Positions 27,356 through 54,458 of a DNA stretch of 64,000 nucleotides are shown here, in pieces. The DNA is from Caldalkalibacillus uzonensis (GTDB taxonomy: Bacteria > Bacillota > Bacilli > Caldalkalibacillales > Caldalkalibacillaceae): contig NZ_JAUSUQ010000003.1 of the NCBI RefSeq assembly GCF_030814135.1, positions 1 through 64,000 on the forward strand, written 5' to 3'. A model generated the notes under the pieces. The model searched no databases and was not told the DNA's origin. It saw only the letters and a list, made by a program, of their open reading frames with translations. Each line of letters starts with the position of its first letter. The stretch's first letter is position 1. The position numbers were made by a program, and so were the translations under genes.

Positions 27356-28666
27356 TTATCCTGTTGAAGCTTGTTTTTCAGCCCGTTCAACTGATTCGGC
27401 CAAAAGATCAACAATATGCACCACTTTTACCGAGTTCTGTAACCCTTCACTGTGCACGCCCGCCTTCATTTGCAACAGGCATCCCGGGTTGGCTGTGATA
27501 ATCACATGGGCACTTGTCTCCTTGACATACCCCATCTTTTTATGAAGAATGTCGCCCGCCATTTTGGGTTGAAGTAAGTTATAGATCCCAGCTGACCCGC
27601 AACACAGGTTTGATTCTGGTAAGGGGCGATAATGGAGGTTGGCCACTCTCGAAAGAAGCTGTTCAGGAGCACGTTTAACCTGCATCACATATTGCAAATG
27701 ACAAGAGGGCTGATAAGTCACCGTTTCTCCGTTTCCAACGGCTTTGGGAAGGGTCCCCTGTTCAACAATGACTTCGCTAATATCACGAATTTTATGGCAA
27801 AACGCTCTTGCCCGCTCCAACCATTCCGGTTCATGACGAAACAATTCTTCATATTCTTTTAACATGGCGCCGCATCCTCCGGCGTTGGAAATGATGTAAT
27901 CCACGTCCAGCTTTTCAAACACTTCAATGTTTTTCTTGGCCAGTTCCAAGGTGGTATCTTTTTGGCCATTATGATACATGAGTGCACCGCAGCAGACTTG
28001 GTCATCTGGTACCACCACATCAAACCCTGAACGTGCCAAAAGCTCAATAGAATGGCGATTTGTTTCTCTAAACATGACATCCATGATACAGCCCCGAAAA
28101 AGGGCAACTTTGCCGGCTCGCTTGTTTTGTTCGGAGCAGCCAGGTGTAAAACTGGGAAGAGGTTTACGCTCAGATGGAGGGAGCAAATCGGGAAGCACTG
28201 CTTCCATCTGCTGGGCAGAATCGGGAAAGAGCTTTAAGATTCCCAGTTTGTGCACCAGCCACCTCAACCCGCTCTGCTGATACAGCCAAAGCAGATGTCC
28301 CAAGAACTGCAGCCGTCGGGGGTGTGGCAGGAGATGGTTGAAGAAAAAACGCTTCAATGTACGTACAAGAAACGGCGATTTTTTATGCTCCGCTATCTTT
28401 TCTTTGGCTAACATCACAATTTCAGGCACTTGCACATTGACCGGACAAGCATCCACACAAGCTGAACACAGCAAGCAGCGGCTCATCTGCTCCTCAATTT
28501 CAGCATTGACTGGAATCCTGTCTTCTAACAGGCTCCGTGCCATCAGCACCCGTCCTCTGGGCCCGTCGGCTTCTCTGCCGGTGATATCCAGAGTAGGGCA
28601 GGCGTCTCGGCAAGCACCGCACCGCACGCAGGTGTACATGGACTGTTCCGGGGTTAATGGTTTCAC
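27356..28666 (-). CDS. glcF: Glycolate oxidase iron-sulfur subunit GlcF
   Basis: A 436-aa protein with two 4Fe-4S ferredoxin motifs near the N-terminus (CVRCGACRDACP and CLLCSACVDACP). Two CCG domains follow, with FRGCIMDVMF, CCGALMYHNG and CCGSAGIYNL. It passes electrons from the FAD subunit GlcD towards quinone. It starts 16 bases after glcD and is the last gene of the operon. Because GlcD/GlcF-like pairs also oxidise D-lactate or other 2-hydroxyacids, glycolate is the best but not the only substrate. Confidence 0.9.
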   Translation of the reverse strand: MKPLTPEQSMYTCVRCGACRDACPTLDITGREADGPRGRVLMARSLLEDRIPVNAEIEEQMSRCLLCSACVDACPVNVQVPEIVMLAKEKIAEHKKSPFLVRTLKRFFFNHLLPHPRRLQFLGHLLWLYQQSGLRWLVHKLGILKLFPDSAQQMEAVLPDLLPPSERKPLPSFTPGCSEQNKRAGKVALFRGCIMDVMFRETNRHSIELLARSGFDVVVPDDQVCCGALMYHNGQKDTTLELAKKNIEVFEKLDVDYIISNAGGCGAMLKEYEELFRHEPEWLERARAFCHKIRDISEVIVEQGTLPKAVGNGETVTYQPSCHLQYVMQVKRAPEQLLSRVANLHYRPLPESNLCCGSAGIYNLLQPKMAGDILHKKMGYVKETSAHVIITANPGCLLQMKAGVHSEGLQNSVKVVHIVDLLAESVERAEKQASTG

Positions 28667-28682: not shown

Positions 28683-30089
28683 TTAAGTTGGTAACGCCAT
28701 TTTTCCAGGATTAAGGATATTATTGGGATCTAAAGTTTTTTTCAGCCGCCGCATCACATCTAAAGCCTGCCCATGCTCAATCTCCATGTACGGAGCCCGA
28801 ACAATGCCCACACCGTGTTCGGCTGTTGTGGTTCCACCCAGTTCAATGGCCAGATGGTGAATCTCCTCAATCATTTGCTTAGCCTTTTCCACTTCTTGCT
28901 GATTATTGATATCAATAATCGGGGCTGTATGCAGGTTGCCATCGCCAACATGACCATAGATTCCGCAAACAATATTATAAGAGTTGGTAATCTCGTGAAT
29001 GCGACGTATCGCCTCCGGCAACCTGGAGAATGGCACACATATGTCTTCCCCTCCGTAAACACGGATCCCTCCTGGTTTCAGATTACCCACTGCGGCTCCT
29101 ACAATTTTTCTTGATTGCCATAAATTCTCGCATTGTTCTGGATCGTCACTAAACTTGACATAATCGGTATGAGATTTGAGCGCTTCCGAAATGGTTTTGA
29201 CCTGCAAGGCAACGATATCTTTGTTTCCATCCACTTCGAACAAAAGCAGGGCTTCAGTTTCCGGTAAATTCAGGTCTGGACGCATCTTGTTAGCTGCCCG
29301 GGTAGCATAAATGTCCATAATTTCGATCGCTGACGGAATAATTCCGGAATGATAGACTGCCCTTACGCCTTCAATGGCCTGCTCGATCTTTGGAAATGAA
29401 CAGAGGACAATCCCTCGTGCAGGCGGCAGAGGGAGAAGTTTTAACCTGATCCGGGTCACAATGCCTAGTGTGCCTTCCGAGCCGATCATCAAATGGGCCA
29501 GATCATAGCCAGAAACCGACTTTAGCGCTCTCGATTTTTCCCCGCCGGTCACAATCACTTCCCCGGTGGGAAGCACAATTTCCAGTCCAAGCACATATTG
29601 ACGGGTAACACCGTATTTGACTGCTCGCAATCCGCTGGAATTATTAGAGATCATACCACCTACTGTACACATTTTTGAACTGCCGGGATCAGGAGGAAAA
29701 AAAAGACCGTACTTTTTGAGTGCCGCATTTAAATTGGCCTGAATGATACCTGGCTCTACAATCACTTGGAAATTTTCGTCATCCACTTCGATAATGCGGT
29801 CCATTTTGGACATATCCAGCACGATGCCCCCCTTGATTGGGACCGCTCCTCCGGTTTGACCCGTGGCTGCTCCGCGGGGGTAGAGAGGAACTTGATATTT
29901 ATTGGCGAGCTGTACACAAGCCTGCACCTCGTCAGTAGAGAGGGGTATGACGACCGCTTCCGGCTCTTTGGGTTCCAGTTGGGTGGCAAAAGAAGCATCG
30001 TAGGCATAAGTCATCATATCCGTTTTGCGCCATAATACCCTCTCTTTATCGATTACACGTTGCAATTCCGAAATTATTTTTTCAATCAT
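28683..30089 (-). CDS. glcD: Glycolate oxidase FAD-binding subunit GlcD
   Basis: A 468-aa FAD-linked oxidase from ATG 30089, after GGGAGG. PRGAATGQTGGAVPIKGGIV is the PP-loop FAD motif. GGMISNNSSGLRAVKYG and GSEGTLGIVTRIRLKLLPL follow, and HVGDGNLH near the C-terminus with the later TAEHGVG matches the lactate/glycolate oxidase family. The two neighbours, a glyoxylate-type aminotransferase and GlcF, support glycolate to glyoxylate oxidation. Confidence 0.9.
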   Translation of the reverse strand: MIEKIISELQRVIDKERVLWRKTDMMTYAYDASFATQLEPKEPEAVVIPLSTDEVQACVQLANKYQVPLYPRGAATGQTGGAVPIKGGIVLDMSKMDRIIEVDDENFQVIVEPGIIQANLNAALKKYGLFFPPDPGSSKMCTVGGMISNNSSGLRAVKYGVTRQYVLGLEIVLPTGEVIVTGGEKSRALKSVSGYDLAHLMIGSEGTLGIVTRIRLKLLPLPPARGIVLCSFPKIEQAIEGVRAVYHSGIIPSAIEIMDIYATRAANKMRPDLNLPETEALLLFEVDGNKDIVALQVKTISEALKSHTDYVKFSDDPEQCENLWQSRKIVGAAVGNLKPGGIRVYGGEDICVPFSRLPEAIRRIHEITNSYNIVCGIYGHVGDGNLHTAPIIDINNQQEVEKAKQMIEEIHHLAIELGGTTTAEHGVGIVRAPYMEIEHGQALDVMRRLKKTLDPNNILNPGKMALPT

Positions 30090-30139: not shown

Positions 30140-32101
30140 CTACAGCTTATTTCGTTTTGCTTCCTTTAACTTACGCCATAACGTCGTCCTGCTGATGCCA
30201 AGGATTTGAGCCGCTTTGGTCTGATTATAATGAGTTTCCTTGAGAACGCGAAAAATTTGATCGTATTCATGATCTCTTAAACGGCCGGGGGATAACTGCT
30301 TTTGTCCGCTTGGTTTATGAACGGTATTTTCATCAACTGGAGGAACGTTTTTTTCCGTTTCTTTTTTGTACAGTGTTTGAAACGGGGCACCGCCTGCTTC
30401 CAACACTGTTTCAAGATCAATCCAGTCATGCTGAGACAAGATCATAGCCCGCTCAATAAAATTGCGTAATTCCCGAATGTTACCAGGCCACTCGTACTGT
30501 TTCATCAAGTCCATTGCCTTTTTCTCAATGCCTTTGATTTGGCGCCGGACATATGGACGCAATTCTTTGATCAGATGTTCACAGAGCAGAGGAAAATCTT
30601 CTTTCCTTTCCCTTAGCGGGGGAACATCGATCCGTAATACATTGATGCGATAAAAGAGATCAGCTCGAAACCTCCCCTCTGCCACCATGTCTTCGAGATT
30701 CCGATTAGAAGCAGCGATCACCCGTACATCGACCGGGACAACCCGCTCATCCCCCAAACGCATGACCTGTCTCTCCTGCAATACTCTTAATAGCCGTACC
30801 TGCAAGGTTTCGTCCAGCTCTCCAATTTCATCTAGAAAAATGGTACCTCGGTGGGCCAATTCAAAGTAGCCTGCTTTTCCCTTTTTTCTGGCGCCTGTAA
30901 ACGCCCCCTCCACATAGCCGAACAATTCACTTTCCAAAAGCTGTTCAGGAATCGCTGCACAATTCACAGCCACAAACGGCCCACGGGAGCGAGGACTTAA
31001 ACTGTGAATAAGGTGAGCCAACACTTCCTTGCCCACCCCCGTCTCTCCTGTCACAAGAACGGTAGAGTCCACGCCGGCATACTTCTTTACTTTATTCAGG
31101 GTTTGTTGGAAAACTGGGCTTTGACCGACCACATCCCTTAATTGATAACGGGTGACATGTCCTTTGTGGTATAACTTTTGACGGATTTCCTGTTCTTGTT
31201 TTTGAAATTGGCTTAATTCATTAAACGTGCACAACACACCAATCACATTCATATTGAAATGGATTGGGACCAAATGACCAATCAGTTTCAGAGGATGCAT
31301 ATCGATAATTTGGTTCAGTCTCTCTTCACCGCTTTGAAGCACCTCAGTCATCTTGAAGGAAGGAAGTACTTTGTCAATCGGCCGGCCCTTAACCGACTGA
31401 GCGGAAAGATTGAGCAGCCTCTCAGCCGCTGGGTTGAATACGGTGACCGCCCCCTGTTGATCGATGGCGATCACCCCTTCTGTAATAAAATCCAATACCG
31501 TCTGCAATTGCTCTGTTTGAGCAACCTCTTTGCGCCGAACTGAAATAAGCTGCTCCGCTTCGCAGATGGCCTGGATAATCGATTCGATCCCACTGGACAA
31601 AATCACTGTGGAAATGGGTCGCCCTTTCACACTTTTTACTCTGTTTACATAAACGGATTTGCCGATTAATACATCGATCCCTTCCTGCAGAAGAGCCTCA
31701 ACGGCTGATTCTACATCCTCCAATGAGTAAATAGTGTATTTTTTAATCTTGCAATTAAAAATAGCCTCTAAACTTTCAACTCCGCGCAAAACCTCTTCAG
31801 TATCCGCAATTCCAATCCGTCCACCCAAAGCAGTTGCTTGCACATAGGCACGAAGCAAGTCATATCCTGAAATGGGAATAGAGACAACTGGGATAGAGAG
31901 GTTAGCTTCACTGATCTTCCATGCCGCAGTGCCCCGGCTGATAATCACTTCTGCCCCATTTCTTTCTGCTTCTTTCGCTCTCGTGACCGCCTCATCGACC
32001 GAACAGGTTATAATAGGAATCTCTTTCCCTAATGTTTCACACGCTTTGTTCGCAGTTTGAGCCAGCTCTTCGAATGGTGCGATGATGACGATGGAAGCCA
32101 T
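30140..32101 (-). CDS. PrpR-type sigma-54-dependent activator
   Basis: A 653-aa protein. Residues 1-165 resemble the PrpR_N sensor domain (ISRGTAAWKISEANLSIPVV). A PAS domain lies at about 195-300. The AAA+ domain has Walker A GETGVGKE at 352, the sigma-54 contact loop GAFTGA at 399-404 and Walker B FLDEIGEL. A Fis-type helix-turn-helix (TKAAQILGISRTTLWRKLKE) ends it. It lies between the aminotransferase and glcD, so it probably controls its own operon, which has a -24/-12 promoter at 33379-33394. The ligand is unknown; PrpR_N domains sense small organic acids. Confidence 0.92.
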   Translation of the reverse strand: MASIVIIAPFEELAQTANKACETLGKEIPIITCSVDEAVTRAKEAERNGAEVIISRGTAAWKISEANLSIPVVSIPISGYDLLRAYVQATALGGRIGIADTEEVLRGVESLEAIFNCKIKKYTIYSLEDVESAVEALLQEGIDVLIGKSVYVNRVKSVKGRPISTVILSSGIESIIQAICEAEQLISVRRKEVAQTEQLQTVLDFITEGVIAIDQQGAVTVFNPAAERLLNLSAQSVKGRPIDKVLPSFKMTEVLQSGEERLNQIIDMHPLKLIGHLVPIHFNMNVIGVLCTFNELSQFQKQEQEIRQKLYHKGHVTRYQLRDVVGQSPVFQQTLNKVKKYAGVDSTVLVTGETGVGKEVLAHLIHSLSPRSRGPFVAVNCAAIPEQLLESELFGYVEGAFTGARKKGKAGYFELAHRGTIFLDEIGELDETLQVRLLRVLQERQVMRLGDERVVPVDVRVIAASNRNLEDMVAEGRFRADLFYRINVLRIDVPPLRERKEDFPLLCEHLIKELRPYVRRQIKGIEKKAMDLMKQYEWPGNIRELRNFIERAMILSQHDWIDLETVLEAGGAPFQTLYKKETEKNVPPVDENTVHKPSGQKQLSPGRLRDHEYDQIFRVLKETHYNQTKAAQILGISRTTLWRKLKEAKRNKL

Positions 32102-32123: not shown

Positions 32124-33317
32124 TTAAACTTGAGCAAAAGGATTTTCTACCTTTTCATAGTGATGATCAGCCCAGTAGCGTTGGGCTGCCTCGACAGCTG
32201 TACCAAATTTCACATCATAACCAATAACATGTAATCCCAGCTCCAACGTGCTGAGCATTTTGAGTACATCGGCGGTATCTGTATAGCCCATATGTCCAAG
32301 CCGGAGTAACTTGCCTTTTAATTGACCCAATCCTCCGCCTACTGCTACATGAAAGGTCTGTCTCAGCATTTTGCGGAATTCATTTGCATCGTACCGGTCA
32401 AAAATGACAGAAGTGAGTGTAGGACTGGCTGCATGGTCTTCCACTAGAAGAGGAAGTCCCAGAGCGCGTACTCCGGCACGGGTCATTTCGCGCAAACAAG
32501 CATGACGTTTATAGGCGTTTTCGATCCCTTCCTCAGCAATCATCTTGCAAGATTGGAGCAATCCATTGACCAGAGCGATATTAGGGGTATAGGGGGTGTG
32601 TCCTCCTGGCAACAAGTCCCGGTACTTTTTCAAATCAAGATAAAATGATGGACATTGATGTTGATCCATGACTCGCCAGGCTTTTTCGCTCACAGTGACG
32701 AGAGCAATACCTGGGGGGAGCATCAAGGCTTTTTGCCCTCCTGTTGCCACCACATCCAAATGCCAATCATCCATATACAGAGGGGTCCCGACGATCGAAC
32801 TGACCGCATCCACAACCAGCACAGCATCGTAATTTTTCACGATAGCCCCAATCGATTGAATGTCATTGATCGCTCCTGTAGAAGTTTCACAATGAGTGAC
32901 AAAGACTGCTTTCACTTCAGGGTTAGCATCAAGAGTGCGCCGCACATCTTCTGGGTCTATGATCTGGCCCCATGGAGCATCGATGCGAATCACCTTGGCC
33001 CCAATATGCTCGGCGATCCCCACCAGATACTCGCCAAAGTAGCCGATGACACAAATGACAATTGTATCTGCAGGACCCACCAAATTGACCATGGCCGTCT
33101 CAAGGGCTGAAGCCCCGCTTCCACACAGCAAATAGACATCGTTTTCCGTTTGAAACACCATTTTGGAAGCTTCGGAGGCCTCTTTCAGCACTTCCTGGAA
33201 TTCCTCATTCCGATAATCCATCATAGGGTGATCAAACGAACGCAATATTGTTCTCTGTATTTCCCGCGGCACTTGAACGGGACCGGGTAAGCGTAAATCC
33301 ATCTTTTCACCAAACAT
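32124..33317 (-). CDS. Alanine-glyoxylate-type aminotransferase (class V)
   Basis: A 397-aa fold-type I PLP enzyme from ATG 33317, nine bases after GGAG. An earlier in-frame ATG at 33389 would overlap the sigma-54 promoter and is rejected. It contains PGPVQVPREI, GSGASALETAMVNL, VTHCETSTGAIND, VVDAVSSIVGTPL and ATGGQKALMLPPG with the PLP lysine. This is the serine-pyruvate / alanine-glyoxylate / purine-catabolism (PucG) group. With glcDF downstream it most likely aminates glyoxylate to glycine. Confidence 0.87.
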   Translation of the reverse strand: MFGEKMDLRLPGPVQVPREIQRTILRSFDHPMMDYRNEEFQEVLKEASEASKMVFQTENDVYLLCGSGASALETAMVNLVGPADTIVICVIGYFGEYLVGIAEHIGAKVIRIDAPWGQIIDPEDVRRTLDANPEVKAVFVTHCETSTGAINDIQSIGAIVKNYDAVLVVDAVSSIVGTPLYMDDWHLDVVATGGQKALMLPPGIALVTVSEKAWRVMDQHQCPSFYLDLKKYRDLLPGGHTPYTPNIALVNGLLQSCKMIAEEGIENAYKRHACLREMTRAGVRALGLPLLVEDHAASPTLTSVIFDRYDANEFRKMLRQTFHVAVGGGLGQLKGKLLRLGHMGYTDTADVLKMLSTLELGLHVIGYDVKFGTAVEAAQRYWADHHYEKVENPFAQV

Positions 33318-33378
33318 GCTATCACTCTCCTTTTCCTTGTCACTCGTTTTTAACTCAGGTTCTTCGAAAAATTTTATT

Positions 33379-33394
33379 GCAAGATCCATGCCAA
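33379..33394 (-). promoter_or_regulatory. Sigma-54 promoter (-24/-12)
   Basis: The minus strand reads TGGCATGGATCTTGCA: TGGCA, then TTGCA, with GG and GC ten bases apart, as required for sigma-54. It is 62 bases before the aminotransferase ATG. The downstream gene for a GAFTGA-containing activator makes the call strong. Confidence 0.85.
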
Positions 33395-33453
33395 ATTTTG
33401 ATGGCGTTCAAAACCCTGTCACAATAAGTGATTCACTTCCTCTCAACTTGGAG

Positions 33454-33516
33454 TTGAAACAATTCTTTTTTTGATATGTTTCATAATTGAACAGCAAATT
33501 AAATGTTTTGTTTCAA
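33454..33516. promoter_or_regulatory. Candidate upstream activator sites for the sigma-54 regulator
   Basis: TTGAAACAA (33454-33462) and its exact reverse complement TTGTTTCAA (33508-33516) flank TATGTTTCATA (33475-33485). They lie 60-125 bases upstream of the -24 element, the usual enhancer distance for sigma-54 activators. Confidence 0.6.
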
Positions 33517-33590
33517 TTTTAAACTTTTTTTCTTACATTGGCTAGACCGATAGCCTCAATAAACCAAGGGGGGCGGCACATATCCTCCAG

Positions 33591-35093
33591 CTAAGCCCCA
33601 AAGGTTTGATTTTCCCGTTTTCTTCTGCTTAACAAACTCTTGATTAAAGGATAAAAGAGCGACAACAAGGCTAATACGATCAAAGTGGCACTGATGGGAC
33701 GGTTGAAAAAGACCAGAAAATCACCACCCGCCATTTGAACTGCCCGACGGAATTGGTCTTCAGCCAAGGGACCCAATACCACCCCAAGGACAATGGGGGC
33801 AATGGGGAATTTGGCCTTTTCCAAGAAGTAGCCTAAAACCCCAAAAGCAAACATCACCCACAGATCAAATACATTGTTGCGGATGGCAAATGTGCCTATG
33901 ATGCAGAACATCAAAATCACAGGACCTAAATAGTAATATGGGATTTTGAGCACCTGGGCAAAGAGCATGATGAACGGCTTGGCTAACACCAAAATAAAAA
34001 TAATAGAGAGCAACAGACCGATAAAAATACTGTAAACCAACTGTGAATTATTGGTGATCAGGAGAGGACCGGGCTGTATGCCGTGTAAGATGAAGGCTCC
34101 CAGGATGACAGCAGTGGTGGCACTTCCCGGTATGCCTAAAGCAAGCAGGGGGACCATTGCGCCCATGGCCGCCGCATTATTTCCCGACTCAGGTGCTGCA
34201 ATCCCTTCCGGAACACCTGTGCCAAATTTTTTGGGGTGTTTAGACCAGCGAACGGCCTCACTGTAACACATCATCGCTGCGGTGGTTGCACCCGCGCCAG
34301 GCAGTATACCTATCATTGTACCGATAATAGAGGACCGGCCAATCGTGGCGGTTAAACTTTTAATCAGATTTAGCCCTGGAATCTTAGAGGTCACCTTTTT
34401 GATTTGTTCTTTAATGGCGTGATCTTGTTGGGCCCGGCGCAAGACTTCCGATACGGCAAATAATCCGATCAAGATCGGAATAAAATTAATCCCGCCTGTC
34501 AGCTTGGGCATGTCAAACGTGAAACGTTGAACGCCGGACATGGAGTCAATCCCTATAGTGGCGATAAACAGGCCAAACAGAACACCGATTAGTCCTTTGA
34601 TTACCTGCTTGTTACTCAAGGCGGCAACAACGGTTAATCCCAAAAAGGCCAAAGCAAAGTATTCAGGTGCTGCAAATTCCAAAGCCACTTTGGCTAAATA
34701 CGGCGTGAGGAAAATTAAGATCAACGTTCCGATCAAGCCGCCTGAGGCGGAACTGAAAATGGCAATCCCCAATGCTTTTCCCGCTTCTCCCCTGCGAGCC
34801 ATCGGGTACCCGTCAAAGACAGTAGCGACCGCCTCCGGTGCCCCAGGTGTGCGGAACAAAATGGCACTGATTGAACCGGAAAACACAGCAGTGGCATAGA
34901 TGGCTGTCAGGATGAGAAAGGCAGAAGTGGTATCCATCCCATATGTGATCGGAATAAGAATAATAACAAGCATGGTGCCGCTGATCCCCGGAGTAGCACC
35001 GCCAAAAAAACCAATCAGGACACCGAAAAACAAGGCAATCAGATAGATTGGGTGTAGTACATTAAGCAAACCCGCCAAGAGCTCGGCAAACAT
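33591..35093 (-). CDS. tctA: Tripartite tricarboxylate transporter large membrane subunit TctA (system 1)
   Basis: A 500-aa protein with about twelve membrane helices. It carries the TctA signatures GFFGGATPGISGTMLVIILI, the twin later loop ILPGAGATTAAMMCYSEAV and PLLALGIPGSATTAVILGAF. TctA forms the transport channel and takes substrate from TctC using an ion gradient. It follows tctB in the order tctC-tctB-tctA. The substrate is an unidentified carboxylate. Confidence 0.93.
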   Translation of the reverse strand: MFAELLAGLLNVLHPIYLIALFFGVLIGFFGGATPGISGTMLVIILIPITYGMDTTSAFLILTAIYATAVFSGSISAILFRTPGAPEAVATVFDGYPMARRGEAGKALGIAIFSSASGGLIGTLILIFLTPYLAKVALEFAAPEYFALAFLGLTVVAALSNKQVIKGLIGVLFGLFIATIGIDSMSGVQRFTFDMPKLTGGINFIPILIGLFAVSEVLRRAQQDHAIKEQIKKVTSKIPGLNLIKSLTATIGRSSIIGTMIGILPGAGATTAAMMCYSEAVRWSKHPKKFGTGVPEGIAAPESGNNAAAMGAMVPLLALGIPGSATTAVILGAFILHGIQPGPLLITNNSQLVYSIFIGLLLSIIFILVLAKPFIMLFAQVLKIPYYYLGPVILMFCIIGTFAIRNNVFDLWVMFAFGVLGYFLEKAKFPIAPIVLGVVLGPLAEDQFRRAVQMAGGDFLVFFNRPISATLIVLALLSLFYPLIKSLLSRRKRENQTFGA

Positions 35094-35131
35094 GCACCCA
35101 TCCTCCTTTTTTCACTAATCTCTCTTAATAG

Positions 35132-35665
35132 TTAGTAGAAAAACAGGCTGAGTTCCCTGAAGAAGCCAACCCCTCTGGGCAAAGGTAAATGAAGGAGCTT
35201 GGTAAAAATAAACACAAAAACAGCGGTGCTGATAACAGAGGCTCCCAACAACGGAATCCATTTTTTCACACCCATCACCCAAGAGACGACGAGAATGAAC
35301 AATAAAGAGGCGAGAATAAAGCCTAGGTAAGGAAGGGTGATAATAAACACCGTTAAGGACAATATGATCGCCCATAACCGAAAAGGATACTTCAGTTCTG
35401 GTTCATATACGGATACATGTTCTTCTTCCTCTACTGTTTGCTCGGTCTCAGTTTGACCAGATTCCCGTTTTTGCATGCGGGCTTCTATCAATGTTTTGGC
35501 CAATAGAATGATGCCCAGCACTAACATCAGACTCAAGATAAACGTGGGCCAAAAGTTTGGTGGAACAGCCGTTTGAGCACGCGAATCAGGAATCTGAATG
35601 GCCTGAATCAGGAAAAAGAATGAAAACACGATGGTCACAATGGCGATGACCAAGTTGGATTTCAT
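35132..35665 (-). CDS. tctB: Tripartite tricarboxylate transporter small membrane subunit TctB (system 1)
   Basis: A 177-aa membrane protein with four predicted helices (IAIVTIVFSFFFLIQAIQIP; FILSLMLVLGIILLAKTLI; LWAIILSLTVFIITLPYLGF; ASVISTAVFVFIFTKLLH). The ending LPLPRGVGFFRELSLFFY recurs almost unchanged in the other two TctB proteins here. A charged cytoplasmic loop separates helices two and three. Confidence 0.9.
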   Translation of the reverse strand: MKSNLVIAIVTIVFSFFFLIQAIQIPDSRAQTAVPPNFWPTFILSLMLVLGIILLAKTLIEARMQKRESGQTETEQTVEEEEHVSVYEPELKYPFRLWAIILSLTVFIITLPYLGFILASLLFILVVSWVMGVKKWIPLLGASVISTAVFVFIFTKLLHLPLPRGVGFFRELSLFFY

Positions 35666-35707
35666 ACGTCTACCTCCCTGTTCAAGTTCTTAAAGCTTAG
35701 AAGCAAA

Positions 35708-35736
35708 AGGAAAAAGAGGAAGGTCCTCTTTTTCCT
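35708..35736 (-). promoter_or_regulatory. Hairpin between tctC and tctB, system 1
   Basis: AGGAAAAAGAGGA-AGG-TCCTCTTTTTCCT has 13-base arms right at the tctC stop. On the minus strand it is followed by TTTGC. It can partly terminate or protect the tctC message. Confidence 0.75.
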
Positions 35737-36763
35737 ACTCTTCCAGGCTTTTGATAATCTCGGTATAGGTTTCAATCTGTTCAGCTAACAGCGCCCGGTA
35801 ATCTTCAGCATTTAACCATCCCTCTCTTAGATGTAAAAATGAATTTTGTTCATATTCCTTATAGCCAGGGCGGTCCTTTGCTTCTTCTAAAGCTTTTTCC
35901 AAAATTTCAACAATTTCTTGAGGGGTATCACCATGAACCATAATACCGCGGGAAAGCCCGTCTGTTAAATTGATTCCTATTTCAACAGTAGTCGGAATAT
36001 CTGGGAACTCATCCACTCGTTCTTCAGCAAATACAACCAGGGGGATGATTTCTTCAGTTCTGATATAGTCAATGGTGGGCCCGAACTCTTCAAACTGGGC
36101 ATCAATATGTCCTCCCAGGAGCGCCGCATGCATTTCCCCTGCGCCCTCAAAAGGAACATAATTCAGCTCAATTCCAGCTTCTTGTTCAAAGCGACGAACA
36201 GTAAGCTCATCAAAAGCTCCGGCACCTGTTCCGCCAATGCTGACTTGGCCAGGGTTTTCCTTAGCATAATCAATTAACTCTTCAATCGTTGCAAAGGAAC
36301 CTCCTGCCTTAACCTGGATGGTTGCCGTATCAGCTTGAATACGGGCTACCGGAGTGTAGGAGTCCAGGCCATAGGGATTCAGCCCGTTAGCATGGGCTAT
36401 CGTATAGTTTGAAGTGGGATACAACGTATAGCCATCTGCTGGTTGTTCTTGTACATACATCCCGGCCACCGCCTCTGAAGATCCTTCCATGTTTACCACA
36501 TTGATCGTCACACCGAGAAGATCCTCCAATTCAGCCGCGATGGCCCTGGCAAAGTTGTCAGTTCCTCCTCCTGCTCCCCAGCCAACGACCATCTCAATTG
36601 GGCGTGTAGGATAATCGACTGCAGCAGTGTCTTGTGGCCCTTCAGCTTCTTGATCTCCTTCCTGCTCCACTGACTGTCCGGTTTCAGTTCCACCACAGCC
36701 ATACAACACCACACTTACCGCCAGCGTCAGAATGAGTAATAGGATCCATTGCTTTTTGAGCAT
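35735..36763 (-). CDS. tctC: TctC-family solute-binding lipoprotein (system 1)
   Basis: A 342-aa lipoprotein from ATG 36763, behind AAGGGGG. The signal ends VVLYGC. The TctC/Bug fold begins YPTRPIEMVVGWGAGGGTDN, the conserved loop that hydrogen-bonds a substrate carboxylate, and continues with GAGAFDELTVRRFEQEAGI, VPFEGAGEMHAALLGGHIDA and the C-terminal LHLREGWLNAEDY. It captures the substrate outside the cell. Confidence 0.93.
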   Translation of the reverse strand: MLKKQWILLLILTLAVSVVLYGCGGTETGQSVEQEGDQEAEGPQDTAAVDYPTRPIEMVVGWGAGGGTDNFARAIAAELEDLLGVTINVVNMEGSSEAVAGMYVQEQPADGYTLYPTSNYTIAHANGLNPYGLDSYTPVARIQADTATIQVKAGGSFATIEELIDYAKENPGQVSIGGTGAGAFDELTVRRFEQEAGIELNYVPFEGAGEMHAALLGGHIDAQFEEFGPTIDYIRTEEIIPLVVFAEERVDEFPDIPTTVEIGINLTDGLSRGIMVHGDTPQEIVEILEKALEEAKDRPGYKEYEQNSFLHLREGWLNAEDYRALLAEQIETYTEIIKSLEE

Positions 36764-37073
36764 CTTTTCTTTCCCCCTTGTGAGAGATTTTTGATGGGTT
36801 GCGTCAAACATGTCATTCAAACCATCCCCTTTCTCCCTGCGGACATCCCTCCTTTCAGTTTTCCTCTGCCTTGAGGATATGGGCGTTAATCTTACCAAAA
36901 ATGATAACAATCTACTGTTTTAGAATCCACTATATTTTCTATAAATTTAAAAAAGATGATCCCTCTTAAAAGATTTATCGATAGTCGACAAAATAGGGGG
37001 ACAAACGAGCCACAGCGTCCGGATGATTCACTATCATGCTTGTTTGGCCCCCTTCACATCAATCACTCTTCAT
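36764..37073. other. Upstream region of tct system 1
   Basis: This 310-base gap is AT-rich, with no coding frame. It holds the palindrome TAGTCGACAA (36982-36991), part of the recurring GTCGAC motif. A possible but weak promoter on the minus strand is TTGTCC, 17 bases, TCGATA overlapping that palindrome. Confidence 0.45.
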
Positions 37074-42437: not shown

Positions 42438-42518
42438 TGCATCATTGTTAGTCGTTTATTATTCAATATTTACTATATTTTAATATTCCAATATTCTAAC
42501 GAAAGGATGAGTTTAATC

Positions 42519-43553
42519 ATGAGTAAAAAATTGTACCTCCTAATCAGTATTCTTGTAGTTTTCAGCTTAGCTCTTATGGCCTGTAGTTCCGACAGCACGA
42601 CCCAATCAACAGACGAAGCGGGAAATGGACAGGAAAATGGACAAGCTAACGAGTCTGCCAATAATGCTAGTGATTATCCTAGCCGCACAATTGAAATCTA
42701 TGTTGGACATGGAGCAGGGGGAGGAACAGATATTTTTGCCCGCACGATTGGTGAACTGCTAGAAGATATCTTAGGTGTTAATATTAATGTCGTTAATCTT
42801 GAAGGTGCAGGTGGAGTTATAGCCAAAGAACATGTGGCTAATCAACCGGCAGACGGATATACCATTGCAGCCATCTCCTCCTTCCCTGTCAGTACAGCTC
42901 TAGGGACCAACCCAGCAGGATTGGATGTACTCACTCCTATCGCTCGTGTACAAGCTGATACGTACACCATTATGGTAAGATCTGATCAGTTTGAAGACTT
43001 GGATGAGTTCCTGAAGTACGCCGAAGAAAACCCGGGCCAAGTTCGAATTGGCGGTGTAAGTACCGGAAGCATGGATGAAATTAATGCAGCAAGGTTTATA
43101 GATGCTACTGGCCTTGATATGGCTTACGTTCCCTTTGATGGTTCAGGTGACATGCAAGCAGCTTTACTTGGCGGCCATGTTGAAGCGATCCTTGAAGAGC
43201 TTGGACCCGTTATTGATTATGTGGATTCAGGTGAAATAAAGCCCATTATTGTCTTTGCAGAAGAGCGTTTGGACGAGTTCCCGGATGTGCCGACCACTGT
43301 AGAAAATGGTTGGGATCTTACTCAAGGGGTTGAGAGAGGTTTCGCCATCCATATAGATACACCGCAAGAAATTATTGATCTGCTAGAAGATGCTATACGA
43401 CAAGCCTACGAAACTGAAGCCTATAAAGAACATGAGAAGCAACGCTATCTCCATTTGCGCGAAGGATGGCTAGGTTCTCAAGAATACAGGGAAAAATTGG
43501 AGCAGGACATCGCCATTTACCGTGAAGTTATACAACAATTAGAATCTCAATAA
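42519..43553 (+). CDS. tctC: TctC-family solute-binding lipoprotein (system 2)
   Basis: A 344-aa lipoprotein from ATG 42519; an in-frame ATG at 42507 overlaps the likely ribosome-binding site. The signal ends LALMAC, followed by a Gln/Asn/Glu-rich linker. YPSRTIEIYVGHGAGGGTDI is the carboxylate loop and VPFDGSGDMQAALLGGHVEA matches systems 1 and 3. It is closer to system 1 than to system 3, both in length and in the ending LHLREGWLGSQEY. Confidence 0.93.
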   Translation: MSKKLYLLISILVVFSLALMACSSDSTTQSTDEAGNGQENGQANESANNASDYPSRTIEIYVGHGAGGGTDIFARTIGELLEDILGVNINVVNLEGAGGVIAKEHVANQPADGYTIAAISSFPVSTALGTNPAGLDVLTPIARVQADTYTIMVRSDQFEDLDEFLKYAEENPGQVRIGGVSTGSMDEINAARFIDATGLDMAYVPFDGSGDMQAALLGGHVEAILEELGPVIDYVDSGEIKPIIVFAEERLDEFPDVPTTVENGWDLTQGVERGFAIHIDTPQEIIDLLEDAIRQAYETEAYKEHEKQRYLHLREGWLGSQEYREKLEQDIAIYREVIQQLESQ

Positions 43554-43573
43554 ATATAACCGAATCAAACAAG

Positions 43574-43592
43574 GGGGCAAATTATTTGCCCC
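43574..43592 (+). promoter_or_regulatory. Hairpin between tctC and tctB, system 2
   Basis: GGGGCAAA-TTA-TTTGCCCC with 8-base arms, followed by TCTCC and no T-run. It is placed like the hairpins in systems 1 and 3. Confidence 0.7.
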
Positions 43593-43623
43593 TCTCCATT
43601 CATTCATTGGGAGGGAAACTTCA

Positions 43624-44169
43624 ATGGCAGTCCCCAATCTCATACTTTCATGCATCACACTCATCTTTGCCACTGTATTTCTTATTATCGCTCAACAGTT
43701 ACCTCCTGGAAGACCGGGTGCCACAACTTTAGGTCCTTCTGCCTGGCCTACGGTGATCTTAACCATCATGTGGGTGATGGGTGCTTTGCTCTTAATTAAA
43801 GCGATTATTCAATTGCGTAAAGACAAAGAAAATCAGCAGTCATCAAATGACGTCCTGAAAGACATCGTTCCAGACGATATTGATACACAAGTAAAGAAAC
43901 CACAAATCGCTCATCCACACCGCCACTGGATCATTTATACCCTAATTATCCTTTATGCTCTCATCATGGGTTATATTGGCTTTACTCTCGCTTCATTTTT
44001 ATTTGTGATTGCAGCAGCATGGGTGTTCGGTATGCGGAAATGGTATTTACTTGTTTTGAACGGTGCAGTTAGTACAGCAGTTATCGTCCTTTTGTTCGGA
44101 AATCTGCTCGGCGTACCCCTACCCAGAGGAATTGGAATATTAAGAGAAATAAGCTTCTTACTATATTAA
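43624..44169 (+). CDS. tctB: Tripartite tricarboxylate transporter small subunit TctB (system 2)
   Basis: A 181-aa protein with four membrane helices (LILSCITLIFATVFLIIAQQ; TVILTIMWVMGALLLIKAII; WIIYTLIILYALIMGYIGFT; VLNGAVSTAVIVLLFGNLL) and the ending PLPRGIGILREISFLLY. The ATG has GGGAGG upstream. The central loop is longer and more charged than in system 1. Confidence 0.9.
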   Translation: MAVPNLILSCITLIFATVFLIIAQQLPPGRPGATTLGPSAWPTVILTIMWVMGALLLIKAIIQLRKDKENQQSSNDVLKDIVPDDIDTQVKKPQIAHPHRHWIIYTLIILYALIMGYIGFTLASFLFVIAAAWVFGMRKWYLLVLNGAVSTAVIVLLFGNLLGVPLPRGIGILREISFLLY

Positions 44170-44200
44170 TGACACTAGGTTGTCAAGGGGGATCAACATT

Positions 44201-45703
44201 ATGTGGGAAAATCTATTAGGCGGGTTCCTCTCCGTTATAGAACCCATACACCTTTTGGTTCTTCTTTCCGCTGTGTTCATTGGTTTTCTCGGAGGAGCCT
44301 TACCAGGGATTAGCGGGACGATGCTCGTTATTATCCTGTTACCCGTTACCTATGGCATGGATACGATTAGCGCTTTTCTTATGCTAACAGCGATCTACGC
44401 CGCTACTGTTTTTTCAGGTATGATTAGCGCTATCATGTTTCGTACACCTGGAACACCGGAAGCGGTCGCTACAGTTTTTGACGGCTACCCGATGGCCAAA
44501 AAAGGGAAAGCAGGAGAAGCTCTAGGCATCGCCATCTTCAGCTCAGCTGCGGGAGGAATGATCGGAACACTCATTTTGATCTTCCTGACACCAGTTCTGA
44601 GCAGATTTGCCCTTAGTTTTTCCTCACCGGAGTATTTTGCATTGGCCATCTTAGGGCTGACAGTTGTCGCCTCTTTAAGCGGAGGAGATATTATTAAAGG
44701 TTTTATTGGGGTTTGCTTTGGTTTATTTATTGCCACCATTGGCATGGATACTTTATCAGGAACACCGCGATTTCATTTTGGCACATCAAATCTGATGACA
44801 GGGGTTGAACTTCTTTCTGTGCTTATAGGCCTTTTTGCCATATCTGAAATCTTGCGCAGAACACGTGAAGATCAAAATCTCGAAGAAACAACAGGTAAGA
44901 TTAAAACTCGCATTTTCAATTCCGCTATTATTAAAAAGATTTCAACCACCATTGGTCGTTCCTCACTGCTGGGTACCTTTATTGGCATCCTTCCAGGGGT
45001 AGGAGCTACCACAGCCTCCATGCTCAGTTACAGCGAAGCTGTCCGTTGGTCCAAACATCCTCAAAAATTTGGTACGGGGGTTCCGGAGGGAATCGCCGCT
45101 CCCGAATCAGCCAACAATTCTGCTGCCATGGGAGCTCTTGTGCCATTGTTAGCCTTAGGAATACCAGGCAGTGCTACAACAGCCGTCATATTAGGAGCTT
45201 TCATCTTGCACGGTCTTCAGCCTGGTCCCAATTTATTGATTAAAGAAAGCAGTTTAGTTTATGCCATTTTTGTAGGTTTATTACTTGTCAACATTATGAT
45301 TATTGTCTTTTCTAAACCTTTTATCGCCTTATTTACAAAGATTATGCGAATTCCTTACACTGTATTAGGACCGATTATTATCATCCTGTGTATGATTGGA
45401 ACTTATGCAGTACGCAACTCCCTGTTTGATGTATGGGTCATGTTACTGTTCGGGATCATCGGGTTCTTGCTGGAAAAATATCGTTTTCCGATTGCCACTG
45501 TTATCTTGGGCGTAGTATTAGGCCCGATCGCCGAGTCAGAATTTCGCCGGGGGTTACAAATGGCCGGGGGGGATTATTCTGTCTTTTTCACTCGTCCAAT
45601 CAGTGCTACATTGCTAATCATCGCCATTTTAGTGATCGCACTGCCAATTTTCAAATCGTTGTTCAAATCACGAACGAATCAAACCGGGCAGATCTCTTCC
45701 TAA
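44201..45703 (+). CDS. tctA: Tripartite tricarboxylate transporter large subunit TctA (system 2)
   Basis: A 500-aa multi-pass protein from ATG 44201, after AAGGGGG. GFLGGALPGISGTMLVIILL, TVFDGYPMAKKGKAGEALGI and GIPGSATTAVILGAFILHGL are TctA signatures. The sequence is strikingly close to system 1 TctA along its length, so the two likely arose by duplication. A bidirectional terminator follows at 45783. Confidence 0.94.
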   Translation: MWENLLGGFLSVIEPIHLLVLLSAVFIGFLGGALPGISGTMLVIILLPVTYGMDTISAFLMLTAIYAATVFSGMISAIMFRTPGTPEAVATVFDGYPMAKKGKAGEALGIAIFSSAAGGMIGTLILIFLTPVLSRFALSFSSPEYFALAILGLTVVASLSGGDIIKGFIGVCFGLFIATIGMDTLSGTPRFHFGTSNLMTGVELLSVLIGLFAISEILRRTREDQNLEETTGKIKTRIFNSAIIKKISTTIGRSSLLGTFIGILPGVGATTASMLSYSEAVRWSKHPQKFGTGVPEGIAAPESANNSAAMGALVPLLALGIPGSATTAVILGAFILHGLQPGPNLLIKESSLVYAIFVGLLLVNIMIIVFSKPFIALFTKIMRIPYTVLGPIIIILCMIGTYAVRNSLFDVWVMLLFGIIGFLLEKYRFPIATVILGVVLGPIAESEFRRGLQMAGGDYSVFFTRPISATLLIIAILVIALPIFKSLFKSRTNQTGQISS

Positions 45704-51167: not shown

Positions 51168-52691
51168 TTACGTATCCTTTGAGATGTTCTGTTGCGATCC
51201 CAGCACTCGGTTTTCCAGTATTTTCTTCAAAACAGGGGCAAATAAGACCAGTATGGTTAACACCAAAATGGTACCACTGACAGGACGAGTGAAAAAGGCA
51301 AAGAAATTGCCACCTGTCATCATCAGACCTTGTCTTAATCCATTCTCAATAATGTCACCGAGCACCAATCCCAAGATGATCGAGGCGAGTGAGAATTTGT
51401 ATTTTTTTAAGAAAAATCCCACCACTCCGCAAACAAACATGATCCACACGTCACCAAGCCGGTTGTTAATGGCGAAAGTCCCCACAACGGACAATATTAA
51501 AATGAGAACACCCAGGTATTCGTAGCGCACGTTTAAGATACGGATAATGTAGCGAATACTGAGAAGGACCAAAATGGCCATGAAGATATTGGCCAGGAAC
51601 AACCCAATAAAAATGGAATAAGCAATGTCTGGATTGTATTGGAACAGCAAAGGGCCTGGACGCAGACCATGAATCAAAAACGCACTTAGAATGACAGCAG
51701 TCACAGCTCCTCCCGGGATTCCCAATGTTAATAATGGAATGAGCGCCCCGCCAACCGCAGCGTTGTTCGCTGCTTCTGGAGCAGCCACCCCCTCGATATT
51801 CCCTTTACCAAACGATTGTTTATCTTTGGAAGCCCTTAAGGCACTTCCATAACCTAGAAAAGAGGCGATCGTGGCTCCAGCACCGGGTAAAATGCCGATA
51901 ATTGTTCCCAGCACACTGGAACGGGCAAGGGTCCATTTCACTTTGCTAATATCCCTCTTTTCCGGCAGGGCAAATCGTTTTTGATTGGTCTCTGTGAAAT
52001 CATACTTCACATTAAAATAACGCTGATGAAAGCGGCTCAACACTTCAGAAACAGCAAACAAACCGATAATGACTGGGATAAAGTCCACCCCTGCTTGCAA
52101 AAAACTGATGTTAAATGTATACCGGCTGACCCCTGAGACCGTATCCAAACCGATGGTAGCGATAAATAAGCCGATCAAGACAGAGATAAACGCCTTAATT
52201 TGATTTTCTGAGTCTATGCTAGCCACCACAAACAGGGCCAACATACCCAAAGCAAAATATTCCGGAGCTCCAAATGAAAGGGCTACTTTAGCAGCCTGAG
52301 GAGCCAGCAAAGTAAGGACTACAGCACTGAATAAACCACCTACTAATGAGGCAAAGGCAGCCATCCCCAAGGCTCGAAAAGCTTCTCCCTTTTGCGTCAA
52401 TGGATATCCATCCAATGTGGTCACCGCCGCAGGAGCATCACCGGGGGTATTGAAAAGAATGGCGCTAATCCCTCCTCCGTAAACGGAGGCCGCATATATG
52501 CCGACCATGACCAGAAAACCACTGATCGGGTCCATCGCATACGTAAAAGGGATGAGCAAACTGACTGCTGTCACCCCGGAGAGTCCCGGAACCATACCAA
52601 ACATAATCCCTATGACAACTCCGAGCAAGATCATAAACAAATGCAGTGGTTCAAAGACAATTTGTAGGCCGAGCAGTAAATATTCCAGCAC
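51168..52691 (-). CDS. tctA: Tripartite tricarboxylate transporter large subunit TctA (system 3)
   Basis: A 507-aa multi-pass protein: GIMFGMVPGLSGVTAVSLLI, LFNTPGDAPAAVTTLDGYPL, GILPGAGATIASFLGYGSAL and LTLGIPGGAVTAVILSAFLI. Substitutions in all signature loops (VPGLSGV, GDAPAA, GIPGGAV) mark it as a different branch from systems 1 and 2, consistent with another substrate. It follows tctB by 12 bases. Confidence 0.93.
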   Translation of the reverse strand: MLEYLLLGLQIVFEPLHLFMILLGVVIGIMFGMVPGLSGVTAVSLLIPFTYAMDPISGFLVMVGIYAASVYGGGISAILFNTPGDAPAAVTTLDGYPLTQKGEAFRALGMAAFASLVGGLFSAVVLTLLAPQAAKVALSFGAPEYFALGMLALFVVASIDSENQIKAFISVLIGLFIATIGLDTVSGVSRYTFNISFLQAGVDFIPVIIGLFAVSEVLSRFHQRYFNVKYDFTETNQKRFALPEKRDISKVKWTLARSSVLGTIIGILPGAGATIASFLGYGSALRASKDKQSFGKGNIEGVAAPEAANNAAVGGALIPLLTLGIPGGAVTAVILSAFLIHGLRPGPLLFQYNPDIAYSIFIGLFLANIFMAILVLLSIRYIIRILNVRYEYLGVLILILSVVGTFAINNRLGDVWIMFVCGVVGFFLKKYKFSLASIILGLVLGDIIENGLRQGLMMTGGNFFAFFTRPVSGTILVLTILVLFAPVLKKILENRVLGSQQNISKDT

Positions 52692-52703
52692 TGTTTTCCC
52701 TCC

Positions 52704-53228
52704 CTAGTACAAGAAAAAGCTGATTTCCCTTAACAAACCTGTTCCTCTGGGCAAAGGAATCTGTAAAAAATGACCAAAGACAAAAATAAGTGCTGCCGTA
52801 ATAACTACTGTGGAGAGAAGATTTTTCCACCACGGGCGAACACCGACAAGCCAGCTAATAAACAACAAAAGCACAGGTGTCAAAAGAATAAACCCCAGCT
52901 GTGGGAGCAAAACAATATACACAAAAATCAGAGCGATCATGCTGACCAGCCGCACATCGGTAAGTTGACGGATATACGCCTGTTCCCCCTGCTCATCCCT
53001 GTCTTTTCTGAGACTCTCAACAATAGTTTTAACTAGTTGAACCAAGGTTAATATCACAATCCCCAACAACAAGAGCTTGGGCCAAAACTTGGGTCCTAAC
53101 TGTTCACTCGCCACCCGTGCTGCTGATACCTTAATAATCTGATCTGTAAATAATAGGAGCAGCAAACTGACGATAAATAAGGACCCGGTTACCATGATTT
53201 CCCCATAACGATGAAAAATCAATTTCAT
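52704..53228 (-). CDS. tctB: Tripartite tricarboxylate transporter small subunit TctB (system 3)
   Basis: A 174-aa membrane protein with four helices (MVTGSLFIVSLLLLLFTDQI; LLLGIVILTLVQLVKTIVES; MIALIFVYIVLLPQLGFILL; LSTVVITAALIFVFGHFLQI) and the ending PLPRGTGLLREISFFLY. A hairpin precedes it. Confidence 0.9.
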   Translation of the reverse strand: MKLIFHRYGEIMVTGSLFIVSLLLLLFTDQIIKVSAARVASEQLGPKFWPKLLLLGIVILTLVQLVKTIVESLRKDRDEQGEQAYIRQLTDVRLVSMIALIFVYIVLLPQLGFILLTPVLLLFISWLVGVRPWWKNLLSTVVITAALIFVFGHFLQIPLPRGTGLLREISFFLY

Positions 53229-53268
53229 GATTTCCGTCCCCTTCCTGTGTTGTTAAGACAAATATGGC

Positions 53269-53307
53269 ATCCAGCCATTCCATAAATTATTTGTGGAATG
53301 GCTGGAT
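53269..53307 (-). promoter_or_regulatory. Hairpin between tctC and tctB, system 3
   Basis: ATCCAGCCATTCCA and TGGAATGGCTGGAT are perfect 14-base arms around 11 bases, with no T-run. It is the strongest of the three tctC-tctB hairpins. Confidence 0.82.
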
Positions 53308-53318
53308 TGGCTAACACT

Positions 53319-54458
53319 TTATTCTATATATCCTAAGTCTCTTAACATCTCCCGAACTATTTCAACTTCTTCTTTGGCAGCTTTTTCATAATCCTCTGAA
53401 TTGAGATAACCAGGAACAATATCCAAGTAGGATTCTTTTTCATATTGTTTATACCCAGGCATTAACGAGGCAGCATAAAACACATTGTGTAAGTATTGCT
53501 GAATCTCGGGATCAAGTCCGCCAGGAGCATTAATTCCTCTCCAGCGTCCCACTGATACAGTCAAGCCATAATCGGCCGTTGTCGGCGCATCAATTCCTTC
53601 AAACGGAACATCACTAGGAATGAGAATCGGACGAATTTGCCCATCGTGATACAAATCAATAACAGCACCAGCTGTTTCATGCAACACATCGATATGTCCT
53701 CCAAGCAAACTTGCCACTCTCTCACCTGATTCTTGGCTGGGAATATAGGTGAATTTGACATCGCCTAGTTGCTGAACAAGTTCAGCAATACGCAACTCAT
53801 CATCTCCGGGGGACCCCGCTCCGGTAAACGTCACTTCATTTTGCTTAGCATGTTCGACAAGGTCGTCCCATGTTTCAAAGGGGCTGTCCTCTCTGACCCA
53901 AAACACTTCAGTAGCACCCTGGTTACGAATAATGAATGTGGTTTCTTCTGTAAAACTATACGGTTGCTCACCCAATGCTTCATTGATCACTTGAGATGTA
54001 ATGGCACCATAAATGGTGTAACCATCGGCCGGTTGATCCAACATATAAGCTAAAGCCACTTCACCGGCGCCACCCGGCATATTGTTAATGATGATCTTGG
54101 TGTCCATGATTTTTTCCGCTTCCATGGCGATATGGCGGGCATAGCGGTCAGATCCACCGCCTTCACCCCACCCCACAACATATTCAATGTTCCGGGAGGG
54201 ATAACCTTCAGGCTTTGGTATAACTGCCTTTAATTCCTCGATTCCTTCTTCTTCCGACAAATCCCCGCTGTTAATTTGGTCTGTAATACGCTCAATCTCA
54301 GCTAACACTTCTTCCTGGCTTAATGTCGACTCCGGTGCAGTCTCCCCTTCCTGGTTGTTCGGTTCCTCTGAGGAGGAAGAGGGTTCACTACCACATGCAG
54401 CAGCGATTAAGACTAAAGCAAGCATTACAAACATTAATAATCCTAATTTTTTGTTCAT
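53319..54458 (-). CDS. tctC: TctC-family solute-binding lipoprotein (system 3)
   Basis: A 379-aa lipoprotein; the signal ends VLIAAAC. About 35 residues longer than its two paralogues, it has a Ser/Glu-rich linker and a helical insert (SQEEVLAEIERITDQINSGD) before the binding domain starts YPSRNIEYVVGWGEGGGSDR. IPSQESGERVASLLGGHIDV replaces the VPF-GAG motif of systems 1 and 2. A sigma-A promoter and cre-like site lie upstream. Confidence 0.92.
   Translation of the reverse strand: MNKKLGLLMFVMLALVLIAAACGSEPSSSSEEPNNQEGETAPESTLSQEEVLAEIERITDQINSGDLSEEEGIEELKAVIPKPEGYPSRNIEYVVGWGEGGGSDRYARHIAMEAEKIMDTKIIINNMPGGAGEVALAYMLDQPADGYTIYGAITSQVINEALGEQPYSFTEETTFIIRNQGATEVFWVREDSPFETWDDLVEHAKQNEVTFTGAGSPGDDELRIAELVQQLGDVKFTYIPSQESGERVASLLGGHIDVLHETAGAVIDLYHDGQIRPILIPSDVPFEGIDAPTTADYGLTVSVGRWRGINAPGGLDPEIQQYLHNVFYAASLMPGYKQYEKESYLDIVPGYLNSEDYEKAAKEEVEIVREMLRDLGYIE

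Follow-up and report, generated by a model that had tools for sequence, protein, structure and literature searches.

A conserved sigma-54 promoter predicted to control an aminotransferase–regulator–glcDF operon in Caldalkalibacillus uzonensis

Four genes follow one another on the minus strand of the window, the 64,000-nucleotide stretch of Caldalkalibacillus uzonensis DNA analyzed here: a class-V aminotransferase gene, a sigma-54 activator gene, and two genes that resemble glcD and glcF. What switches these genes on, and does the activator encoded among them act on its own promoter? A preliminary description proposed a self-contained sigma-54 switch, and we examine that proposal by comparison with related operons and by pattern and family searches across the genome.

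The promoter element and its operon

The promoter was described as TGGCAT-N5-TTGCA with exact GG-N10-GC spacing, 62 bases before the aminotransferase start, and this is correct to the base. The motif lies at 33393-33378 on the minus strand, with GG at 33392-33391 and, after N10, GC at 33380-33379; 62 bases separate the −12 GC from the ATG at 33317. It is the sole zero-mismatch match to TGGCAYN5TTGCW in the 64 kb. The element and the genes are as follows.

33378 to 33394, minus strand: sigma-54 promoter −24/−12 element, TTGGCATGGATCTTGCA, identical to the consensus and conserved in orthologs
33367, minus strand: predicted transcription start, about 12 bases past the −12 GC, placed by sigma-54 promoter geometry
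33325 to 33339, minus strand: ribosome-binding region CAAGGAAAAGGAGAG before the ATG at 33317, read from the sequence
32124 to 33317, minus strand: class-V aminotransferase, first gene, start MFGEKMDLRLPGPVQVP (Pfam PF00266)
30140 to 32101, minus strand: sigma-54 activator, PrpR_N, PAS, AAA+ (GAFTGA) and Fis-type HTH (RTTLWRKL) (Pfam and orthologs)
28683 to 30086, minus strand: glcD-like FAD-linked 2-hydroxyacid dehydrogenase (Pfam; best NCBIfam model GlcD, below cut-off)
27356 to 28666, minus strand: glcF-like iron-sulfur subunit (Pfam; GlcF model below cut-off)

A one-mismatch match to the −24/−12 pattern at 38826-38811 was dismissed, since one-mismatch matches number at chance level; it also straddles the start of a hexapeptide-repeat gene and has an altered −12.

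The regulator had been read as a PrpR_N–AAA+–Fis activator with GAFTGA. Pfam and the sequence agree with this (Sigma54_activat, PF00158, 238.8 bits; HTH_8, PF02954, 49.1 bits; VEGAFTGA in the sequence), but a PAS domain between PrpR_N and the AAA+ domain had been missed. A gap of 22 bases separates the aminotransferase gene from the regulator gene, and the order, with the regulator second, fits a shared transcript. None of the encoded proteins reaches the cut-off of the family models to which it was compared. The regulator scores 402.2 bits with PrpR TIGR02329 (equivalog cut-off 499.2) and 428.6 bits with PrdR NF041552 (cut-off 795), the latter match running only from residue 173 on; the glcD-like protein scores 407.7 bits with GlcD TIGR00387 (cut-off 567.9), the glcF-like protein 241.4 bits with GlcF NF008434 (cut-off 333), and the aminotransferase 288.3 bits with the aspartate-glyoxylate aminotransferase BhcA, NF045640 (cut-off 650).

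Relatives of the operon were found outside the order. Searches of same-genus and same-order genomes gave no close aminotransferase ortholog, four class-level genomes contained one at 72-74% identity, and a contig scan with an alignment of aminotransferase orthologs found 22 loci; the same scan with the regulator sequence alone as the query gave no match. The full set of aminotransferase, PrpR_N/PAS/AAA+/Fis regulator, glcD and glcF is present at 17 of the 22 loci, in Ammoniphilus, Metabacillus, Cytobacillus and close strains, Peribacillus, Mesobacillus and close strains, and Halalkalibacter. These 17 relatives are partly non-independent and stand for about seven genera. Their regulators are 53-58% identical to that of the window by tblastn (60% in a full alignment with Ammoniphilus), and other regulator homologs in related genomes score far lower. 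In 14 relatives, a gene of 224-237 aa lies between aminotransferase and regulator (for example, L134:9188-9862, L126:9186-9881 and L139:9191-9904). Two examples had no Pfam match, and by eye the product resembles part of the aconitase/LeuC large subunit; the gene was not found in the window, in Halalkalibacter or in Metabacillus.

The preliminary description had let its case hang on conservation of the −24/−12 element in relatives. TTGGCAY-N5-TTGCW, with the GG-N10-GC spacing, occurs with zero mismatches in the window, in 17/17 orthologous operons and in one partial locus, that is, in every operon found to carry an orthologous regulator. In all 17 it lies 60-77 bases 5′ of the same aminotransferase ATG, and in an alignment anchored on it, the element reaches 1.6 bits of information per column, compared with 0.25-0.57 in the flanking stretches. 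The ATG itself, which had been placed at 33317, equals the conserved start: the aminotransferase orthologs, 72-75% identical, all begin at the equivalent position with the common sequence MFxEKMDLRLPGPVQVP, which supports this start. The start of the longer, mechanically called ORF, at 33389, lies within the promoter.

A sigma-54 gene, the absence of which had been named as fatal to the proposal, is present in the genome as a single rpoN (one PF04552 match, 223 bits). There are 25 strong sigma-54 activator domains, a count that leaves out four weak matches, all below 44 bits, and 38 perfect −24/−12 elements, compared with 4 for the reversed pattern. A perfect element lies within 3.5 kb of 21 of the 25 activator genes, where 1.7 would be expected. 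The usual layout among these places the promoter just 3′ of the activator gene on the same strand, or 5′ of it on the opposite strand; activators downstream of a same-strand promoter are limited to the regulator of the window and one on contig 18. The main reading of the preliminary description thus holds under those of its refuting conditions that sequence analysis can address. With the switch retained in 17 related operons, the predicted sigma-54 control of the four-gene operon is real, but it is of a well-known kind.

Predicted upstream activator sites

Inverted repeats had also been reported upstream of the promoter, and TTGAAACAA at 33516-33508 and TTGTTTCAA at 33462-33454 are indeed there. 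No second copy of the pair at this spacing exists in the genome, and the reversed control gives 0. The exact repeat unit, on the other hand, is better read otherwise: comparison with relatives led us to drop the outward-facing pair as the binding unit in favor of an inward palindrome, TGTTTC-N5-GAAACA (TGT-N11-ACA), which is the unit conserved in the aligned relatives. In the window there are three 17-base palindromic slots, 32 bases apart.

33509 to 33525, minus strand: slot at −131, AGTTTAAAATTGAAACA, 2 mismatches, holding most of TTGAAACAA
33477 to 33493, minus strand: slot at −99, TGTTCAATTATGAAACA, 2 mismatches to TGTTTC-N5-GAAACA
33445 to 33461, minus strand: slot at −67, TGTTTCAACTCCAAGTT, left half perfect and right half lost, holding most of TTGTTTCAA

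The slot at −131 is a direct repeat of that at −99. Of the two 9-mers noted earlier, TTGAAACAA covers the right half of the −131 copy and TTGTTTCAA the left half of the −67 slot. The −67 position is the one conserved in relatives, where the first base of the upstream activator site (UAS) is usually 66-69 bases before the T of the −24 element; the window keeps a half copy there, and its full-length copies, each with 2 mismatches, are weaker and lie farther from the promoter than the sites of most relatives. Looking to relatives for the repeats, as had been suggested, shows that upstream sites with PrpR-type half-sites are conserved: of 18 operons, 13 have, within 150 bases, a UAS with at most 2 mismatches, when 0.4 would be expected from first-order Markov sequences, and in the remaining five the copy at the −66 to −68 slot has 3 mismatches. 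At four loci (L129, L130, L134 and L138), additional TGTTYC half-sites flank the palindrome upstream of the aminotransferase, about one helical turn apart, which suggests helically phased multi-site binding.

The UAS motif is not a general feature of sigma-54 promoters in this genome, because only one other of the 38 perfect elements (C5:122257) has such sites at 2 mismatches or fewer. That promoter (G000:C5:122257-122272, L075) precedes genes like those for enoyl-CoA hydratase and 3-hydroxyacyl-CoA dehydrogenase and has GTTTCC-TTT-GGAAAC palindromes at −78 and −101; the nearest activator has a different recognition helix.

Signal, substrate and supply of the regulator

Taken together, we regard it as highly probable that this is a sigma-54 operon driven by its own regulator. 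RNA polymerase with sigma-54 would sit as a closed complex at 33394-33378, and the Fis-type helix of the encoded regulator would contact the sites of the TGTTTC-N5-GAAACA type found 67-131 bases upstream and predicted to lie on one face of the DNA at 32-base, three-turn intervals. The PrpR_N and PAS domains fit a sensor of a small acid, the probable signal being glycolate, glyoxylate or a 2-hydroxy or 2-oxo acid related to them, upon which the AAA+ ring would open the promoter. With its gene second in the operon, the regulator would also become more abundant on induction, a positive feedback. GlcDF would carry out the oxidation of the hydroxy acid, yielding the oxo acid, and glyoxylate would be turned into an amino acid by the aminotransferase.

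What is the acid? Glyoxylate metabolism is indicated by the genes after glcF in Halalkalibacter, a malate synthase G (1285 bits, cut-off 565) and a malic enzyme; in Peribacillus, a malic enzyme follows glcF, and the genome of the window has a malate synthase elsewhere. The acid handled is, therefore, probably glycolate or glyoxylate, and the neighbors fit a route from glycolate through glyoxylate and malate to pyruvate, from which the aminotransferase would draw off glyoxylate. The most serious competitor concerns signal and substrate only, and although we hold it to be the less likely reading, it has a considerable chance: a different 2-hydroxy or dicarboxylic acid might be handled via CoA thioesters. 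Such an acid is possible because the operon proteins, GlcD and GlcF among them, fall below the family cut-offs and because the region directly 5′ of the operon in the window encodes class III CoA-transferases, an enoyl-CoA hydratase and a Tct transporter. In Alicyclobacillus (L124:9107-13924, L133 and L137), aminotransferase orthologs of 72-75% identity stand, without an orthologous regulator, in a CoA-transferase/enoyl-CoA hydratase/CoA-transferase cluster. The malate synthase G and malic enzyme of Halalkalibacter speak against this competitor, as they fit a glyoxylate product.

The Alicyclobacillus cluster mirrors the genes 5′ of the operon in the window and has a sigma-54 promoter of its own, with a different activator nearby. 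By Pfam, the window holds Tct-type tripartite transporters at 33591-36910 (minus strand) and 42507-45703 (plus strand), and ORF sizes alone suggest a possible third at 51168-54458 (minus strand). A strong terminator-like hairpin at 35736-35708 (minus strand), between tctC and tctB, perhaps serves to make more binding protein than membrane components.

How self-contained is the switch? In its strict sense the term is too strong. Eight loci, one in Ammoniphilus and seven in the Cytobacillus group, have another sigma-54 element (0-1 mismatches) after glcF and ahead of the gene that follows, which encodes a TRAP or TctC transporter; in 7 of the 8, UAS copies occur about 135-200 bases upstream. Therefore, the regulator of these loci probably also controls transport. 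In the window, neither a sigma-54 promoter nor a UAS was found ahead of tctC, in the stretch 36806-37073, or ahead of the CoA-transferase at 40892. Furthermore, 13 of the 17 relatives have a sigma-A-like promoter within 110 bases 5′ of the regulator gene (3.2 expected), conserved in the alignment, which would provide a basal amount of regulator; a promoter with a strict need for its activator cannot do so. With a 22-base gap and no such promoter found within 300 bases upstream of the regulator gene in the window, basal regulator there would have to come from leak, read-through from tctCBA or an unrecognized promoter.

It might also be asked whether the working activator is another protein. Two paralogs (C10:77773 and C20:31325) have near-identical recognition helices, RTTLWRK[LI], and boxes of the same half-sites occur near their promoters, such as TGTTACAAATATGAAACA near C10:79534, so cross-activation is possible. 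That one of them is the main activator here, or that the sites are shared by several while the regulator of the operon serves mainly another target, seems unlikely to us, as this regulator always accompanies the conserved UAS across the 17 operons and the UAS recurs at the neighboring transporter promoter in the same relatives. Least probable is that the operon is expressed mainly by tctCBA read-through or a sigma-A promoter, with little contribution from the −24/−12 element in the organism: a search of the minus strand from the end of tctA (33591) to the promoter found no terminator-like site, and there are weak sigma-A-like matches in this interval, but the element and its UAS are conserved, the former perfectly, and the genes 5′ of the aminotransferase differ among lineages.

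Returning to control by the encoded regulator, it is tempting, if rather speculative, to propose that Bacilli possess an undescribed orthologous group of PrpR_N–PAS–AAA+–Fis activators that run glycolate/glyoxylate-type metabolism through sigma-54, and that the operon in the window, whose regulator has no recognized sigma-A-like promoter, forms a positive-feedback loop that is almost closed and might act as an all-or-none switch. The second promoter and the separate regulator promoter of the relatives make this feedback design directly testable. No description of the operon or of the activator group was found in the literature searched. The analysis offers a well-supported regulon prediction, comprising promoter, activator site, activator and targets, for a group of Bacilli activators, and would connect glycolate/glyoxylate-type metabolism of Gram-positive bacteria with sigma-54; the general understanding of sigma-54 control is not altered.

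Comparison with known systems

Glycolate utilization by GlcDF and GlcB is under a GntR-type regulator such as GlcC. The operon described here shares with that system the side-by-side GlcD- and GlcF-like genes and, in Halalkalibacter, the adjoining malate synthase G; it differs in its linked sigma-54 activator, in its sub-equivalog scores and in that no GlcE was found in the operon. In the listed layouts of the SigL operons of Bacillus thuringiensis, which have metabolic targets, the activator gene stands beside the −12/−24 promoter of the target (PMC4428206), whereas here it comes second within the operon that it would control.

The Clostridiales sigma-54 activator group that contains PrdR uses TGT-N10-12-ACA, often at multiple sites (PMC6615313). 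The TGT-N11-ACA layout with multiple sites is alike, and PrdR is the best NCBIfam model for the regulator, but the match is partial and far below the cut-off, and the targets are not proline reductase genes. Salmonella PrpR, the 2-methylcitrate sensor that activates prpBCDE, shares PrpR_N, an AAA+ domain with GAFTGA and a Fis-type HTH, and its published enhancer, CGTTTCATGAAACG (PMC4987338), has the same half-sites, GTTTCA/TGAAAC, 2 bases apart instead of 5. Since this enhancer and the TGT-N10-12-ACA group both match, the half-sites fit a PrpR-like activator, with a different spacing. The target genes also differ, the regulator lies inside its target operon, and its score is below the PrpR equivalog cut-off. 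As far as sequence can tell, the operon is of a known type, a PrpR-like sigma-54 activator with a target operon of its own.
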